NCBI RefSeq assembly: GCF_020091585.1
Contig: NZ_CP083582.1
Location: 7,202,536 to 7,266,535, forward strand
Direction of reading: 5' to 3'
From: Kovacikia minuta CCNUW1
GTDB taxonomy: Bacteria; Cyanobacteriota; Cyanobacteriia; Leptolyngbyales; Leptolyngbyaceae
DNA: 64,000 nucleotides
The number at the start of each line of letters is the position of its first letter. Positions within the stretch are counted from its first letter, which is position 1. The position numbers were made by a program, and so were the translations under genes. Below the pieces are notes generated by a model that saw nothing but the letters and a program-made list of their open reading frames with translations, made no database searches and was not told the origin of the DNA. Shown in pieces: positions 47,560 to 59,955 of the stretch.

Positions 47560-48984
47560 TTATTTCCTTAAAGTTTCCTTTTGATATAGGGGAATGTCAA
47601 TCAGAAACGCTGCGCCCGCTCCAGTTTCTGAAATACATTGGAGCTTTCCCCCATGTTTTTCAACGATAATTTGATAGCTGATTGACAATCCCAAGCCCGT
47701 GCCTTTACCAACTGACTTGGTGGTAAAAAATGGATCAAACAGCCTCGCCCTGACTGCCTCTGTCATTCCTGGTCCGTTATCAGCAACTTTGATCCTGACA
47801 TGGTTTGGTTTTTGAAGCTCTGTAGTAATTGTAATTTTGCTAGGATTCTGACGAATTTCTGATACTGATCGCTGGTTGTCGTAGCTATGCAAGGCATCGA
47901 TCGCATTACTCAAAAGATTCATAAATACCTGATTTAATTGCCCTGCAAAGCACTCTACCAAAGGTAAATCTCCATACTGTTTAACGACTTCAATCGCAGG
48001 ATGCTCCACCTTTCCTTTTAACCGATTCTGCAAAATTAACAGCGTACTATCAATCCCTTCATGAATATCAACCGCTTTCATCTCTGCCTCATCTAGCCGG
48101 GAGAAGTTACGCAAAGAAAGCACAATTTGGCGGATTCGATCTGCCCCTAGCTTCATCGAAGAAAGCAGTTTCGGCAAATCTTCTAACAGAAAATTTAGAT
48201 CAATCTTTTCAATATGATGATTAATTTGGGGAGCTGGATCGGGGTAAATCTGCTGATAAAGATTTAAAAGTTCTATCAAGTCTTGGGTATATTCAGTAGC
48301 ATGTTTTAGATTACCGTAAATAAAATTAACTGGATTATTAATTTCGTGGGCAACTCCAGCAACTAACTGCCCCAAACCTGACATTTTTTCAGTCTGGATT
48401 AATTGTGTCTGAGTTTGCTGCAACTCCCTCAGTGCTTTCTTTAACTTTGCAGCTTGTGCTTCAGCAATTTCAGCCAGATTCTCCTTAATTTGCAAAGCGC
48501 TCTTTAATTGGGTCTGTTGCTGCTTTAACTCCTCCGTTAGCTTTTTTGCATCAGCCAGGGCTGTATTCTTGGCTTGTAATAAAAAAAGAAAATCAATGAT
48601 GGGATCATGGACAGCAAAATCCTTTAGCTTCAGCCCTAAAGGGGCGAGACTGGCAGTGTCCGTTACCCAGGGAGATCCCAGAAAAAAGAGAATGTCCACA
48701 TCTTCCAGGTACATCATTTGTCCCTTTAGCTGCATTCCATTCTGAAAAGACTTCAGGATAAAAAGGGAACGGCACTGCTTTCTAATTGCATCAAATTCAA
48801 ATTCCACCTTCGGGCGATCGATTTGAAAATGGTGTTCAAATTGGCTACCGACTAATTCACTAACACTGATTCGCCGCAGCACTTCTCCGACTTGAAGAAT
48901 TTCGAGATCGCGATTAAATGCAAAATGAAACGGAAAGGCATTGGAAAATAAAAGCGGCGGCAAACAGAGGTAAGGAGCAACCAT
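47560..48984 (-). CDS. HNOBA-domain histidine kinase
   Basis: A 474-residue kinase. The N-terminal half is an HNOB-associated (H-NOX-binding-associated) domain (FPFHFAFNRDLEILQVGEVL ... GSPWVTDTASLAPLGLKL). A coiled coil follows, then HisKA with the phospho-acceptor His in LVAGVAHEINNPVNFIYGN, and HATPase with N box FMNLLSNAIDAL, G1 VADNGPGM and G2 GKGTGLGLSISYQI. It is encoded eight bases after the H-NOX gene and would relay its gas signal. No response regulator is next to it. Confidence 0.92.
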   Translation of the reverse strand: MVAPYLCLPPLLFSNAFPFHFAFNRDLEILQVGEVLRRISVSELVGSQFEHHFQIDRPKVEFEFDAIRKQCRSLFILKSFQNGMQLKGQMMYLEDVDILFFLGSPWVTDTASLAPLGLKLKDFAVHDPIIDFLFLLQAKNTALADAKKLTEELKQQQTQLKSALQIKENLAEIAEAQAAKLKKALRELQQTQTQLIQTEKMSGLGQLVAGVAHEINNPVNFIYGNLKHATEYTQDLIELLNLYQQIYPDPAPQINHHIEKIDLNFLLEDLPKLLSSMKLGADRIRQIVLSLRNFSRLDEAEMKAVDIHEGIDSTLLILQNRLKGKVEHPAIEVVKQYGDLPLVECFAGQLNQVFMNLLSNAIDALHSYDNQRSVSEIRQNPSKITITTELQKPNHVRIKVADNGPGMTEAVRARLFDPFFTTKSVGKGTGLGLSISYQIIVEKHGGKLQCISETGAGAAFLIDIPLYQKETLRK

Positions 48985-48991
48985 GATTCAT

Positions 48992-49543
48992 TCAAGTTTG
49001 TTTATATTGGATCGAAAATTCATCATATTCAGCCCCCTCTTCTCGGCTTGCAGTTTGAGTAACTTCAACTTCTGTATCAAATCGGGTTCCTAACCCTTTG
49101 ACTAATCCCACCACCATAGGAGCCAGCCCTTCCCGGCTGGAGTGATATTGCAGATTGAGAGATGCTTCCGTTTGATCGGTACAGTCAAAAGATGGCGGTC
49201 TAAGTTGGGGAAAAATCACACCAACACGGGAATGGAGATTGTCGAGATTTTCTAGAAATTCCGGCAAATTATCACCGCTCATTTCCATCATCTCGCCATA
49301 GCCTTCCTGAGCTGTGTACTTCACCCAAAACTCTCCAAAGGCTTGCATAATTTCGGCAGCAGATAATCCCAAGACTTCGCTCGCTGCTTTTACCAGTTTG
49401 TGGGTGACATCATCAGGGTAACCTTCCATACTGATAAAGCTATCCATCTCCAAGTCGGCTTTCTGTTTAATTTCCTTCCAGGTTCCTTCGCCAAACTGCC
49501 TGCACACCATATCCTCGATCGCTTTGTTGACCAAACCGTACAT
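48992..49543 (-). CDS. Heme NO-binding (H-NOX) sensor
   Basis: A 183-residue H-NOX. The proximal heme ligand is His104 in DNLHSRVG, and the propionate-binding YxSxR motif is Tyr133-Ser135-Arg137. ATG 49543 has GGAGG five bases upstream; the longer frame to 49567 lacks support. H-NOX proteins bind NO (some O2) and control partner kinases or cyclic-di-GMP enzymes. Both kinds of partner flank it here. Confidence 0.93.
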
Positions 49544-49618: not shown

Positions 49619-52390
49619 TCAATTGATAAATTCTGCTGATAGAAGGCACCCGGCTTTCTGGCCATCTAAAGGCTTAGAGAAGAAATAGCCCTGCCCACTT
49701 TCACAATGCAGTTCCCTTAAGCGAGCAAGCTGTTGAGCGGTTTCAACCCCCTCAGCCACAGCATCCATCCCTAAACTGCGCGCAAGCATAATAACTGTAC
49801 GAATAATTTCCAGCTTTTCAGTGTCCGTATCAACACTTTGAATAAATGAGCGATCGATTTTCAAAGTACTAACTGGAAAGCGATTGAGATAACTTAGAGA
49901 TGAATAACCTGTGCCAAAATCATCCATTGATAACTGAATTCCCAATGCTTGAAGCTGCAATAGACTGGCAGTGGTAGACTCTACGTTATCCATCAGAATG
50001 CTTTCAGTAATTTCCAATTTCAAGCTTTTAGCATCCAACCCAGTCTCTTGTAGAATCTGTTGAATTTGTGGTGTGAAATTAGCTTGAGAGAATTGCTTAC
50101 CAGAAATATTGACACTAATCGTCAAGTGATCGGCGGCGGAAAATTCCTGTTGCCAGTAGCGCATTTGACGGCAAGCTTCCTGCAACACCCAGTTTCCCAG
50201 GGGAATTATCAACCCAGTCTCCTCCGCCACTGGAATAAACTCACCTGGAGCAACTAAACCGCGCTCTGGGTGGCACCAACGAACCAATGCTTCAAATCCA
50301 GTAATTTTTTGGCTTTCAAGGGACACGATCGGCTGGTAATGTAACTGAAATTCCTGGCGTTCCAACGCTCGGCGCAGGTCAGTCTCTAACTGCAAGAGGG
50401 CAACTGCCCGCACATGCATTGCCGTATCAAAAATTTGGTACTGGGCTTTGCCTTTTCCTTTAGCGTGGTACATTGCTGTATCCGCATCGCGTAGCAGGTC
50501 CTGGGGATTTTCATACCCTGTTGTGCTGAAGGCAATACCAACGCTTGTGCTGGCAAATATCTCGTGCTTACCCAAATTAAACGGAAGCATCAACTCCTTT
50601 TGCAGACGCTCAGCAATTTGGGTCGCATAATGGCTATCTTGAATTCCTTCCAGCAAAATAGCAAATTCATCTCCGCCCAGACGCGCAATTAAATCAGTGC
50701 GGCGCAGACAAGTTTCCAATCTGCGAGAAATCGCGATTAGAAGTTGATCACCCACCATATGCCCCAGGCTGTCGTTAATCACCTTGAACCGATCCAGATC
50801 CAGGAATAGAACCGCAAATAAATAGCCTTCCTGTTGTTTGGTGCAGGCGATCGCATGTTCCAGGCGATCGGTAAAGAGGGCACGGTTGGCTAATCCTGTT
50901 AATCCATCATGCAGTGCATCATGGATTAATTTCTCCTCAACCCGCTTACGTTCAGAAATATCACGGCAAACAATGACTCCCCCTTTTGGAATGCCATTCT
51001 TATCTTTCAACGGTCTACCCGTCACCGTCACCCAGATCCCTTCTGTAGTCTGAGCATGGCACACAAACATTTCAACATCGGTTACCTCTTCTCCACGAAT
51101 TGAGCGTTCTAAGGGTAAATCCCTGGCACTAAAAGGAGTGATCCGATCTGGGAGATAGAGATTCATCGTTTGTGAACAGTGATTTGCCACTAAATGGGTG
51201 GCTTGGCTGCCAAACATCCGTTCTGCCGCTGGATTAAAAACCAGGAAATTTCTGTTTTCATCAGCAACAATAACCGCATCGCCCATACTGTCGAGGATCG
51301 ACTTTAAACTCTCTGAAATTTCCGTTTGTTTTAGTAAGGCAGCCTCAATCTGCTTGCGCTGGATGAACTGACCAATTTTGATGCCAATGTCGGTCATCAT
51401 TTCTTGCAGACTGTCATCTGGCTGGCAGGATTTATGGCTGAAAAACTCAAGCACACCAATGACTTCAGTCCCATTTTGAATGGGTAGTCCGAAACCCCCC
51501 TGTAACCCCGCCGCGATCGCATGTAGCCTACGGGGTGAATTCAGATCGGCAGTAATATCCTCAACCCAAAGCGGTTCTCGCCCATGCCAAACACAACCCG
51601 CCAGACCAATCCCCAATGGCAACGTCAGCATCCGATTCAATGTCTCAAATTCCTTGAAGTGATCAGGAAACGCAGTCCATATTTCCTGACACTTCAAAAC
51701 TTTGGCGGCTGGGTCAACCATCCACAGTGCCCCCACCTGCCAATCTAATGCAGTACAAATCGCTTCCAAAAGTTTGACTGCTGCCTCGCTGAATGTGGCA
51801 GATTCAGCCAGAATATGGGTGACGGTATAGAGGGCAGCCAATTTTCGGTTGGTTTTGCGAAGTTCTGCCCGTTGTGCGGTCAATTCATCCGTCAATTTTT
51901 TCGCATCCGAGAGGGCTGCATTTTGAGCCTGGAGTAAGAAAAGAAAGTCAACAACCGGATCATGAATCGCAAAATCGCTGAGTGTAATTCCGTAAGATTT
52001 GAGCGAGGCAATATCAGTCACCCAGGGAGAACATAGAAAAAAGATCGCCTCCGGGTTATTAACATAAACCATCTGCCCTTTAAGCTTCATGCCGTTGTGC
52101 AATGATTCCAGCAGAAACAGCGACTTAGATCGTTTCCGAATTTGATCAAATTCAATTCCAATGTTGGGGCGATCGATTCGGAAGTGCTGATCAAGCTGAC
52201 TACCAATAACTAATTCAGGATAGATGTGTTGTAAAACCCCTCCAATTTGAAGAATTTCGTGGTTTCGGTCAAATACTAAGTGAAATGGAAAAACCTCCGT
52301 AAATAAATTAGGGATTAACTTAAAGCAAGATAAAGATTGGATAGTTTTAGTGGTGGAAGGATCGGTTAAGGGAGGGGTTGCACCTGCCAT
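49619..52390 (-). CDS. HNOBA-GAF-PAS-GGDEF-EAL cyclic-di-GMP enzyme
   Basis: A 923-residue protein. Order: HNOBA domain homologous to that in the kinase (residues about 30-155), coiled linker, GAF (about 180-345), PAS (about 360-490), GGDEF with intact RLGGDEFAIL, and EAL with intact GFEALVRW, ISVNISGKQF, DDFGTGYSSL and LKIDRSF. Both catalytic sites look competent, so it may make and degrade c-di-GMP, with net activity set by the H-NOX partner. First gene of the three-gene operon. Confidence 0.93.
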   Translation of the reverse strand: MAGATPPLTDPSTTKTIQSLSCFKLIPNLFTEVFPFHLVFDRNHEILQIGGVLQHIYPELVIGSQLDQHFRIDRPNIGIEFDQIRKRSKSLFLLESLHNGMKLKGQMVYVNNPEAIFFLCSPWVTDIASLKSYGITLSDFAIHDPVVDFLFLLQAQNAALSDAKKLTDELTAQRAELRKTNRKLAALYTVTHILAESATFSEAAVKLLEAICTALDWQVGALWMVDPAAKVLKCQEIWTAFPDHFKEFETLNRMLTLPLGIGLAGCVWHGREPLWVEDITADLNSPRRLHAIAAGLQGGFGLPIQNGTEVIGVLEFFSHKSCQPDDSLQEMMTDIGIKIGQFIQRKQIEAALLKQTEISESLKSILDSMGDAVIVADENRNFLVFNPAAERMFGSQATHLVANHCSQTMNLYLPDRITPFSARDLPLERSIRGEEVTDVEMFVCHAQTTEGIWVTVTGRPLKDKNGIPKGGVIVCRDISERKRVEEKLIHDALHDGLTGLANRALFTDRLEHAIACTKQQEGYLFAVLFLDLDRFKVINDSLGHMVGDQLLIAISRRLETCLRRTDLIARLGGDEFAILLEGIQDSHYATQIAERLQKELMLPFNLGKHEIFASTSVGIAFSTTGYENPQDLLRDADTAMYHAKGKGKAQYQIFDTAMHVRAVALLQLETDLRRALERQEFQLHYQPIVSLESQKITGFEALVRWCHPERGLVAPGEFIPVAEETGLIIPLGNWVLQEACRQMRYWQQEFSAADHLTISVNISGKQFSQANFTPQIQQILQETGLDAKSLKLEITESILMDNVESTTASLLQLQALGIQLSMDDFGTGYSSLSYLNRFPVSTLKIDRSFIQSVDTDTEKLEIIRTVIMLARSLGMDAVAEGVETAQQLARLRELHCESGQGYFFSKPLDGQKAGCLLSAEFIN

Positions 52391-52485: not shown

Positions 52486-53214
52486 CTAAGCTGAAACAAG
52501 CTGAAGGGGAAGGGTGAGATAAGCACGGGCAGAGGTCTGGCGTAGAATGCCATCGAAGAAGCGAACCCGGGCATTCATCGCATCCAGAATCGCCCGATTA
52601 ACATCCATTGCTGCCTCAGTTGTGTTAATCCGGGGTTCGATTAAAGCGGCTAGATGGGCTGCATGGCTGTCATCCACATCAATGTGAACATCGAAGAAGA
52701 TGAGTGCTTCTTTGGGCAGGAAAGTTGCTCCTACAATGCCCTGCTGAATCTGGGTGTAGAGGGTGCGAACAATCCCTTCTGATGCAAAACAAACGGCTCC
52801 AAGGGCTGCCAAATAGTTGTATTGATGGGGTAAGTTCAGATAGGTGTCAATTAAATGGCGAGTTTCTGGTTCAGTTGGCAATGCTGCCAGGGTCTCGTCA
52901 TCAATCCCCAGAGCACGGGTAAATTGGCGGAATAATTCAGGATGGGCAAGGGTTGAGTTACCCTGTCCCATTTCATCAAACAAATTCTCTAGAATTACAA
53001 GCTGTGCCTGTTCATCGGGACAACAGGATAGGATGCCAGCCAGAATCCGATTAAACTCCTTTGAAAACTTATACATCTGCACCGCTAACACCTGCACCTC
53101 TGCCAGGGAAAGCTGGGTTGTGCGACAACGAGTCAGGAACTCATGATTCCACAGAGGGTGGTTGGCAGTTACCTCGTGGAGGGTTTGCATAACGGAAGAG
53201 GAGGGTGGTTTCAT
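52486..53214 (-). CDS. Heme-oxygenase-like diiron oxidase (HDO superfamily)
   Basis: A 242-residue all-helical protein with the ligand pattern of the superfamily: Glu in NLFDEMGQGNSTLAHPELF together with a His, Glu in CFASEGIVRTLY, and His...Asp...His in FFDVHIDVDDSHAAHL. Members (UndA, BesC, SznF, CADD types) use a diiron centre to oxidise amino acids or fatty acids, often in natural-product pathways. The substrate is unknown. The start overlaps the methyltransferase stop by four bases. Confidence 0.78.
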   Translation of the reverse strand: MKPPSSSVMQTLHEVTANHPLWNHEFLTRCRTTQLSLAEVQVLAVQMYKFSKEFNRILAGILSCCPDEQAQLVILENLFDEMGQGNSTLAHPELFRQFTRALGIDDETLAALPTEPETRHLIDTYLNLPHQYNYLAALGAVCFASEGIVRTLYTQIQQGIVGATFLPKEALIFFDVHIDVDDSHAAHLAALIEPRINTTEAAMDVNRAILDAMNARVRFFDGILRQTSARAYLTLPLQLVSA

Positions 53215-53978
53215 CGGGACACCTGCATCGCTAAATGAAGTGGATAGTCAACAAGCGGCTTGAAGAATGTTTCGTCAAGCTCTACATGGTCTGATTGCAC
53301 CCGGAGTTCTTGCAGGATTGGCATGGTATTAAATCCAGCCACCCTTAAAGCATCGAAGTAGTCTTCTAAGGTTTTGTGGACAAGCTGCACATCTAGCCAG
53401 GAGCCATCACGTTTCCAAATGCGTCCGGGAAATTGACGATCGCGTTGGCTAAAGTAGCCAGCCCCTTCTACCTGAAAATAGAAGGGATATTCTGCCTGGC
53501 GCATGTAGGGAAAGGCGGGATGGGGAACGCTGAAAATGAATCGCCCACCAGGATGAAGAATCCGGGCGACTTCTGCCATGCACTGCTGCGTTTGCTCAAT
53601 GGTCAGGTAGTTGAATAGGAAGACTGCAACCACCAAATCCAGTTGGCGATCGCCAATTTGGGATAAGTCGGTAGCACAGCCAACTTCGTAGTGAATGCCC
53701 AGGCAATCTTGGGACTCCTGCGTTTGAGCAGCGGCAATCATACCATCCGACAGATCAATTCCAAGCACTTCCCTGGCTCCCCGACGGCGTAGCTCTCGGC
53801 TACAATAGCCTTCACCGCAACCCAGATCGAGAACGCGCAGTCCGGCAATTGGCTCACACAATGCCAAAATTGCAGGACGCGCTGTAAAGTCTGATAGGGA
53901 GCTAGGCTCTTCCCGCACCCACTTTGTTGCTGTATCGTTGTATAAATCCCTGGTGGAATGGGTATGAATTAACATCAT
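53211..53978 (-). CDS. Class I SAM-dependent methyltransferase
   Basis: A 255-residue methyltransferase with motif I VLDLGCGEGYCSREL, the acidic residue in VLGIDLSDGMI and post-I LDLVVAVFLFNYL. Then HPGGRFIFSVPHPAFPY, typical of small-molecule methyltransferases. It is the middle gene of a three-gene unit and overlaps the diiron oxidase gene. Confidence 0.88.
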   Translation of the reverse strand: MMLIHTHSTRDLYNDTATKWVREEPSSLSDFTARPAILALCEPIAGLRVLDLGCGEGYCSRELRRRGAREVLGIDLSDGMIAAAQTQESQDCLGIHYEVGCATDLSQIGDRQLDLVVAVFLFNYLTIEQTQQCMAEVARILHPGGRFIFSVPHPAFPYMRQAEYPFYFQVEGAGYFSQRDRQFPGRIWKRDGSWLDVQLVHKTLEDYFDALRVAGFNTMPILQELRVQSDHVELDETFFKPLVDYPLHLAMQVSR

Positions 53979-54130
53979 GTTGCGTAGAATTTAGAACAAG
54001 TAACACCGGAAATTTTCCGGGTGAATTGAGGGGCAGCAGGTCATGACAGGAAGGGGATGTCAAGTTTGATCAACTCAACCCAACCGAAAAAATTGTTCTG
54101 GAAAAAGATGCATCCAGATGATAGAGGGGG

Positions 54131-55126
54131 TCAAAATACCTGGACGGTTCGATAATCCCTGGTATAGAGAGGCACTGCTCCTGGATTGGCTTTTCTGGCT
54201 CTGGCTTCTTCGACAGACTCATCGAACACAATCAGAGTATCTGAACCAACTTGCAGCCAGTCTTCATAGGGCACGCTCATATCTGCTTCAACTCCACCAC
54301 TGCTGGGAGGAACCATCGCTCGATAGGCTTCGTTAAACTTACGGCGAAAACGAAAGTCAACGGAAACTCGCACACCTTCAGAAACCCGTCTTACCGTTTG
54401 GTGGAGTCCACGGGCATCATTGAAGTACATCGTGCCATGTTGTAATTGGGCATTGTCATAGGACACCACCATTGGAATGTCCCGCCCTTCGTTGAAATCT
54501 GACATTACGCGCATTGCGGGTAATTCCATCTCACGGGGCATTTCTCCTGCTTCAATGGTGATATTTTCGATATCTCCGAAGAGGGGCAGTACAACGACTG
54601 TTGCATCGGGTGCGACACCTGCCCAGACATCACTATGCCGTTTGGTGCTGGTAAACGGCAACTGCAATGCATCGGGGTTCATTTTGCCAAAGACAATACG
54701 GAGGTTAACGGGTAGATCCACGGCATCGATCAAATCATTGGCTCCTAATTGGCGAAAAGCGTTGGCAACGCTTTTCTGGAATAGATTGAATTCCAGGATA
54801 TGTTCGCGTTTGGGCATCAGTAGCCCAGTCCCCATGTAGTTAGGCAGGCTGCCTCTGGTTTCCAGAAGGCGGGTCAGCAGTTCTGCTTCAGATAGGGTGA
54901 CTGAGCTGTTGAGGCAGGCTGAGATATATCCTGCGGCAGCAATCTGGATTTGACGAAACAGTTCTGGCCTCAAGGTATGTTCAAATAGCAACCGATAATC
55001 GTGGCGTGTGGCAATTTTAGATGCCAGTTCATTAAACAGTTGATCACCTAACTGAGAGAATGCGATCGCCTCTTCACCTGTAAATTGCTGAGCTAATTGT
55101 GCTCGTTCTATTAGTCCTTCAACCAT
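54131..55126 (-). CDS. Putative Fe(II)/2-oxoglutarate-type oxygenase
   Basis: A 331-residue protein. The second half shows TSTKRHSDVWAG (HxD-like pair), then beta segments and GLHQTVRRVSEGVRVSVDFR (distal His plus a possible 2OG-binding Arg). This fits a cupin-fold Fe/2OG oxygenase. The N-terminal half is helical and unassigned. I do not recognise a named family. It is the first gene of the unit with the methyltransferase and diiron oxidase, 150 bp upstream of the former. Confidence 0.55.
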   Translation of the reverse strand: MVEGLIERAQLAQQFTGEEAIAFSQLGDQLFNELASKIATRHDYRLLFEHTLRPELFRQIQIAAAGYISACLNSSVTLSEAELLTRLLETRGSLPNYMGTGLLMPKREHILEFNLFQKSVANAFRQLGANDLIDAVDLPVNLRIVFGKMNPDALQLPFTSTKRHSDVWAGVAPDATVVVLPLFGDIENITIEAGEMPREMELPAMRVMSDFNEGRDIPMVVSYDNAQLQHGTMYFNDARGLHQTVRRVSEGVRVSVDFRFRRKFNEAYRAMVPPSSGGVEADMSVPYEDWLQVGSDTLIVFDESVEEARARKANPGAVPLYTRDYRTVQVF

Positions 55127-56453: not shown

Positions 56454-56527
56454 CGGGATGTGGCGCAGCTTGGTAGCGCACTTCGTTCGGGACGAAGGGG
56501 CCGCTGGTTCGAATCCAGTCATCCCGA
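56454..56527 (+). tRNA. tRNA-Pro(CGG)
   Basis: A full cloverleaf can be folded: acceptor CGGGATG/CATCCCG, D stem GCGC/GCGC, anticodon stem CTTCG/CGAAG around loop TTCGGGA (anticodon CGG), five-base variable loop, T stem with TTCGAAT loop, discriminator A. CCA is not encoded. It marks the left border of the integrative element. Confidence 0.95.
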
Positions 56528-59415: not shown

Positions 59416-59955
59416 ATGCCTAAAGTAAACGGTAAAGGTCAAGCGGCAATTTTGAGCAACGATCAAATCGATCAGGTTATCAAACTCTGTAGAGAACCCT
59501 ATAACCTGGCTGTTGCGATCGCTGCTTACACAGGTTGTCGAATGGGTGAAGCGATTCAACTAAGGGCAGAAAACTTAGACCTGGCAGCAGGCATTATCAC
59601 TCTGACTCACACTAAGACCGGACGCACAAGGGAAGTAGTGATGCATCCTGAATTAGTGGTGATACTGGCTGATGCTGAATTACCCACATGTGGGTATCTG
59701 TTCCCATCACCTAGAACATCAGGACATATCACCAGACAAGCAGTAGACAAGGAACTGAGAGAGGTTTGCGAGGCTCTAGAAATTAGAGGGGTAGGAACCC
59801 ATAGCTTTAGGCGATCGCTGGCAACTAATCTACACGGCAAAGGTATCCCATTGAAAACGATCGCCAGCATTACCGGACATGAAAGCCTTAATGAGCTTTC
59901 ACGGTATCTGGACGTTACACCAGAGCAACAAAAAGCAGCTATTCTGGCTCGATGA
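59416..59955 (+). CDS. Tyrosine recombinase, catalytic domain only
   Basis: A 179-residue integrase with the full catalytic set: Arg42 (GCRMGEA), Lys67 (THTKTGR), His129/Arg132 (THSFRRS), His155 (TGHESL) and Tyr164 (RYLDV). The usual N-terminal core-binding domain is missing, so the protein is about half normal length. It may act with a separate binding protein or on a simple site. It is the only recombinase gene visible in the element. Confidence 0.9.
   Translation: MPKVNGKGQAAILSNDQIDQVIKLCREPYNLAVAIAAYTGCRMGEAIQLRAENLDLAAGIITLTHTKTGRTREVVMHPELVVILADAELPTCGYLFPSPRTSGHITRQAVDKELREVCEALEIRGVGTHSFRRSLATNLHGKGIPLKTIASITGHESLNELSRYLDVTPEQQKAAILAR

Follow-up and report, generated by a model that had tools for sequence, protein, structure and literature searches.

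Three neighboring genes of Kovacikia minuta CCNUW1, encoding a probable Fe(II)/2-oxoglutarate (2OG) oxygenase (OX), a methyltransferase (MT) and a heme-oxygenase-like diiron oxidase/oxygenase (HDO), appear to provide the three steps of a conserved tailoring pathway and to be part of an H-NOX locus for nitric-oxide sensing, a reading to which we assign a probability of roughly 0.6. It draws on the gene content, the conserved metal sites, the protein folds and the association with H-NOX. A preceding sequence-only reading had taken the three genes for a free-standing set and missed this larger pattern; since the set is part of an H-NOX locus, its probable role differs from the one proposed there. 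To our knowledge, the control targets of cyanobacterial H-NOX proteins and the source of their NO are poorly known, and a conserved set of enzymes whose genes stay with the sensor gene provides a concrete, testable lead on the role of H-NOX in cyanobacteria. In addition, HDO would represent a further orphan subfamily within the HDO superfamily, whose members of known function number only about a dozen (PMC13108848).

Organization of the locus

The window, i.e. the whole stretch of 64,000 nucleotides that was analyzed, contains the three open reading frames where the sequence-only reading had placed them, all on the minus strand, and the locus reaches beyond that segment down to position 47560:

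54131-55126, minus strand: OX, probable Fe(II)/2-oxoglutarate (PhyH-like) oxygenase, 331 aa (open reading frame, invariant motif, AlphaFold model)
53211-53978, minus strand: MT, class I SAM-dependent methyltransferase, 255 aa (PF13649/PF08241)
52486-53214, minus strand: HDO, heme-oxygenase-like diiron oxidase/oxygenase, 242 aa (PF14518, six ligands, AlphaFold model)
49619-52390, minus strand: HNOBA-GAF-PAS-GGDEF-EAL protein, c-di-GMP enzyme with H-NOX-associated domain, 923 aa (PF07701, PF00990, PF00563)
48992-49543, minus strand: H-NOX (HNOB), haem nitric-oxide sensor, 183 aa (PF07700, E=1.3e-57)
47560-48984, minus strand: HNOBA-HisKA-HATPase histidine kinase, presumed H-NOX partner, 474 aa (PF07701, E=1.1e-31; PF00512, PF02518)

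As had been claimed, MT is a SAM methyltransferase (PF13649) that shares four bases with HDO, the start of HDO overlapping the stop of MT by 4 bp (ATGA), and this overlap is present in 42 of 47 homologous loci. OX is situated upstream at a distance of 152 bp from MT and is divergent in most relatives; therefore only MT and HDO form a tight pair, and the earlier description of one compact unit applies to this pair and not to OX. The reported absence of a core synthase was borne out. Downstream of HDO and on the same strand follow the HNOBA-GGDEF-EAL gene, the H-NOX gene and the HNOBA histidine kinase gene, with gaps of 95, 75 and 7 bp (the last between H-NOX and kinase), and this spacing makes a six-gene transcription unit from OX to the kinase plausible. 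On the 5' side of OX, a long intergenic stretch is followed by a tRNA-Pro gene (cgg; 56454-56527), beyond which small hypothetical open reading frames and a short integrase-like one (59416-59955) were found; the segment 56454-63921 looks like an integrated element adjoining the tRNA gene.

HDO and MT

HDO matches PF14518 (E=2.7e-29), and its diiron ligands E81, H91, E146, H177, D181 and H184, aligned with those of CADD and BesC, are invariant in 27 homologues. Foldseek searches with its AlphaFold model (pLDDT 89) matched CADD, HrmI, BesC and UndA (E 1e-8 to 1e-6, TM ~0.8), in agreement with the earlier assignment as a heme-oxygenase-like diiron protein. Fold and ligand set are shared with the HDOs of the HrmI/BelK and BesC/BesD systems (TM ~0.8), and the BesC/BesD pathway pairs its HDO with an Fe/2OG enzyme, as in the window. 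Likewise, an HDO is combined with an Fe/2OG enzyme (HrmJ) in the hormaomycin pathway. However, the window HDO is only ~21-24% identical to these HDOs and is encoded in a different gene cluster, and its score of 55.5 bits against the BesC equivalog NF042919 is far below the cut-off of 500. Plasmid-borne matches to HDO were just 23-28% identical, the BesC host among them, while no relatives of OX were found on plasmids.

The window HDO also has the fold and the six metal ligands of the CADD/NePabS p-aminobenzoate synthases, CADD is a top match in both sequence and structure, and TIGR04305 is matched with 90 bits, below its cut-off of 200. That HDO is a self-sacrificing p-aminobenzoate synthase of the CADD type and the cluster a folate side route is nevertheless highly improbable, because a leucine (Leu27) stands in all 27 aligned homologues where CADD has its sacrificed Tyr27, and folate requires neither MT nor OX. 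Moreover, two genomes that carry the cassette (G022 and G040) possess a separate CADD-like, Tyr-bearing paralogue near alanine dehydrogenase. The leucine in place of Tyr27 and the separate paralogue in these two genomes led us to rule out this identity for HDO.

MT matches PF13649 (E=1.4e-21) and also PF08241. Its nearest solved structure is ToxA, with an alignment confined to the Rossmann core, so that no substrate was drawn from MT. The MT family occurs in 18 of 291 Cyanobacteriia genomes, and an HDO-family gene is close by in all 18; they comprise 13 genomes with OX, four with a TauD-type enzyme (L124-L127) and genome G029. A role in anti-phage defence was considered and rejected, as PADLOC returned just generic methyltransferase domain matches (mad2).

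OX as a probable Fe/2OG oxygenase

Although no Pfam or NCBIfam family matched OX, the presence of full-length or nearly full-length homologues with 66-88% identity in other cyanobacteria indicates a real gene. The motif H164-x-D166...H242...R253 is invariant in 28 homologues while H230 varies, which fits an HxD...H...R pattern; on this pattern, H164, D166 and H242 probably form the facial triad and R253 probably binds 2OG. The AlphaFold model has a pLDDT of 70, with values below 50 for residues 151-170 in the loop around H164. Foldseek matched it to EvdO1, KanJ and PtlH (E ~1e-5), with SnoN also among the matches, and VIA gave Z values of up to 9.6 over 165-228 residues; all named matches listed there are Fe/2OG-type oxygenases. 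Given a model pLDDT of 70, support for a double-stranded beta-helix fold of the Fe/2OG (PhyH-like) type is moderate, and OX is a probable, predicted Fe(II)/2OG-dependent oxygenase. The sequence-only reading had suspected such an enzyme at 54131, and the HxD...H triad as well as the fold agree with it. It had also made its case dependent on metal sites in the oxidases; the site is intact in HDO and the putative triad of OX is invariant. A halogenase was ruled out, since OX has HxD and not the HxG of halogenases.

Most Nostocales loci share a conserved element of ~22 bp (ACAGTATATTTTACGAAGTATA, OX strand) with repeated AGTATA, located upstream of OX in the OX-MT intergenic region (e.g. L026, L028, L040); it is a possible regulator site and does not occur in the window.

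Distribution and rearrangement of the cassette

OX was found in 8 of 58 related genomes, and the seven others carry the same set with flanking genes that mostly differ between genomes. When the OX alignment was used to scan 84,980 genomes, 44 loci were obtained, some of them on the same contigs as in the 58-genome search; all named organisms are cyanobacteria, and distant relatives of OX may have been missed due to the stringent scan patterns. After removal of the two loci L030 and L055, which are truncated by a contig end on the side that matters, and of the decayed L051, in which OX is in two pieces, the kinase is a remnant and H-NOX is missing, 41 uninterrupted loci were retained. OX, MT, HDO and H-NOX occur together in every one of them (41/41), so that the co-occurrence of the three enzymes in other genomes, on which the sequence-only reading depended, holds across a sample almost wholly within cyanobacteria. 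A kinase match is present in 40 of the 41 loci, with a GGDEF protein instead in L057. Genome G005 (L015) has kept OX and an HDO fragment and has lost MT, which demonstrates that decay of the cassette occurs.

Several gene orders were observed. OX, MT and HDO are codirectional and followed by the GGDEF-EAL gene, if present, H-NOX and the kinase in one arrangement, that of the window, OX is divergent in most Nostocales, and L057 has the order MT-HDO-OX-HNOX-GGDEF. Four genomes belonging to one genus (L124-L127) lack OX and have MT-HDO-TauD divergent from HNOX-HK; here, the gene following HDO encodes a TauD-type Fe/2OG enzyme (PF02668, E ~1e-29) without detectable sequence relation to OX. A distant homology between OX and this replacement was considered, but profile-profile comparison gave a probability of 0.6%, and the two are therefore treated as unrelated in sequence. 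Divergent from the TauD-type gene, two of these four loci encode a protein (L125:1930-2736, L126:6135-7016) that has no Pfam match and, judged by eye, resembles an ATP-grasp ligase.

Association with H-NOX

Among 291 Cyanobacteriia genomes, 43 have H-NOX and 14 have OX, and all 14 OX genomes have H-NOX (hypergeometric P=3e-13 counted by genome, 1.4e-9 counted by genus; both values ignore phylogeny). When presence of the cassette was mapped on a quick, weakly supported H-NOX tree, about eight changes were counted, and the label was more clustered than in shuffles. Comparisons of corresponding sites reveal presence and absence of the cassette next to retained sensor genes: genome G277 (L130) with the cassette and G029 (L133) without it both keep the H-NOX and kinase genes between matching genes on both flanks, and the Nostocales arrangement apc-[cassette]-HNOX-HK-ftsW (e.g. 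L022) has a counterpart in G206 (L137), where the cassette is absent and H-NOX and kinase are kept. The association between cassette and H-NOX is strong and has been repeatedly reshuffled. In the open-access literature, we found no description of an association of H-NOX with cyanobacterial clusters, HDOs or N-oxygenases, which is weak evidence of novelty.

The three enzymes might instead produce a metabolite unrelated to NO, e.g. a modified amino acid that serves defence or metal handling, and have inherited their H-NOX neighborhood vertically. Many Nostocales copies indeed reside at one chromosomal site (apc-ftsW) and are thus not independent, and genome G029 carries a related trio, MT-TauD-HDO2 (L147:4743-7326), at a site separate from its H-NOX, with a methyltransferase 54% identical to MT and an HDO2 of the HDO-cupin type minus the cupin. 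We nevertheless consider this explanation improbable, as the cassette occupies several chromosomal sites in different orders and orientations and with a replaced third enzyme, and H-NOX is still adjacent. This persistence of H-NOX through reshuffled orders, several sites and the replacement of OX by a TauD-type enzyme argues for a pathway coupled to the sensor.

Nostoc H-NOX proteins are textbook models of NO sensing, and the H-NOX domain of N. punctiforme has reportedly, to go by the title of Tsai et al. 2012, been grouped with oxygen-excluding sensors. The window H-NOX scores 194.7 bits against PF07700 (cut-off 25.5), has the proximal H104 and the YxSxR motif (YHSSR), and shares ~59% identity with Alr2278 from Nostoc sp. 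PCC 7120. H-NOX proteins from cassette loci of four Nostoc strains match the N. punctiforme H-NOX domain at 19 of 19 residue positions (PMC9510103) and agree with it in length (183) and proline count (8). Both this similarity to Alr2278 and the agreement in residue positions support, but do not prove, that the cassette-type H-NOX binds haem and senses NO. With regard to the cassette, these two characterized sequences hint both ways, Alr2278 resembling the cassette-free type.

An HNOBA kinase is the partner of H-NOX in nearly all loci. The HNOBA-GGDEF-EAL gene is accessory; it is a neighbor in L009-L012, L016, L017 and L057 and is missing from most Nostocales copies. Similar to the SwH-NOX/SwDGC and HnoX/HnoK operons, the window has H-NOX beside an HNOBA kinase and an HNOBA-GGDEF-EAL protein, a signaling layout that has been reviewed (PMC8846402). 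In contrast to the described H-NOX/HNOBA operons, which contain no biosynthetic enzymes, the window locus has three oxidative and methylating enzymes stably attached.

Proposed pathway and its relation to NO

For the OX-MT-HDO pathway we infer the substrate, the reactions, the product and the direction of coupling as follows. The substrate is probably a small, amino-acid-derived molecule. HDO would use its diiron centre and O2 to oxidize this amine or acid, by N-oxygenation or oxidative cleavage as known from HrmI and BesC; MT would methylate the oxidized molecule, and a mononuclear Fe/2OG enzyme, OX or the TauD-type enzyme in another lineage, would oxidize it further. H-NOX would bind NO and signal this to the HNOBA histidine kinase as well as, in the present genome, to the HNOBA-GGDEF-EAL protein, and NO would thereby govern when the small molecule is produced or put to use. 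This direction of coupling, from NO to the pathway or its product, is the most likely one. No DNA-binding response regulator turned up among the genes of the cluster, so that direct control of the three enzyme genes by the kinase would be hypothetical, and no regulator there settles the direction. The 'bioactive compound' suggested by the sequence-only reading found no support, and an NO-linked metabolite or signal fits better.

The opposite direction, in which MT, HDO and the second iron enzyme make the ligand, an N-oxygenated NO-releasing compound or N-oxide signal, and H-NOX and the kinase serve as its receptor, appears unlikely. The locus would then combine a signal generator with its receptor and act as an NOS-independent source of NO; that the three enzymes are a dedicated source of this kind, for NO or an N-oxygenated NO-donor signal that is both made and received (by H-NOX) through one locus, we regard as slightly less likely again. 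A precedent by enzyme composition may be seen in streptozotocin, where SznF, which unites an HDO N-oxygenase with a mononuclear-iron cupin, turns methylated arginine into an N-nitrosourea (PMC13108848, PMC10849742). Like the window, SznE/SznF combine methylation, an HDO and a second mononuclear iron enzyme with a double-stranded beta-helix fold. However, in SznF the cupin is fused to the HDO, whereas the second enzyme of the window is a separate Fe/2OG-type protein and the window HDO (242 aa) lacks a C-terminal cupin, which sets it apart from SznF-type nitrosourea synthases; in addition, SznF has seven metal ligands compared to six conserved ones in the window HDO, and no H-NOX link has been described for it. 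SznF was absent from the sequence matches of HDO and from its fifty best fold matches, which is no argument against a functional parallel. The amine N-oxygenase HrmI is among the nearest HDO structures, but BesC and CADD are equally near in sequence and neither N-oxygenates. OX never occurs without H-NOX in the sampled genomes, while H-NOX is common without the cassette. Finally, in G015 (L132) the H-NOX and kinase genes adjoin an HDO-cupin fusion, an architecture otherwise characterized only in SznF (PMC13108848), but this adjacency is a single case and three other genomes with HDO-cupin genes lack H-NOX. We favor the reading in which NO controls a tailoring pathway or the use of its product.

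The cyanobacterial HDO-cupin fusions of SznF-like architecture (L132:4267-5424, L144:6001-7290, L145:6256-7572, L146:2337-3665) share 44-65% mutual identity.
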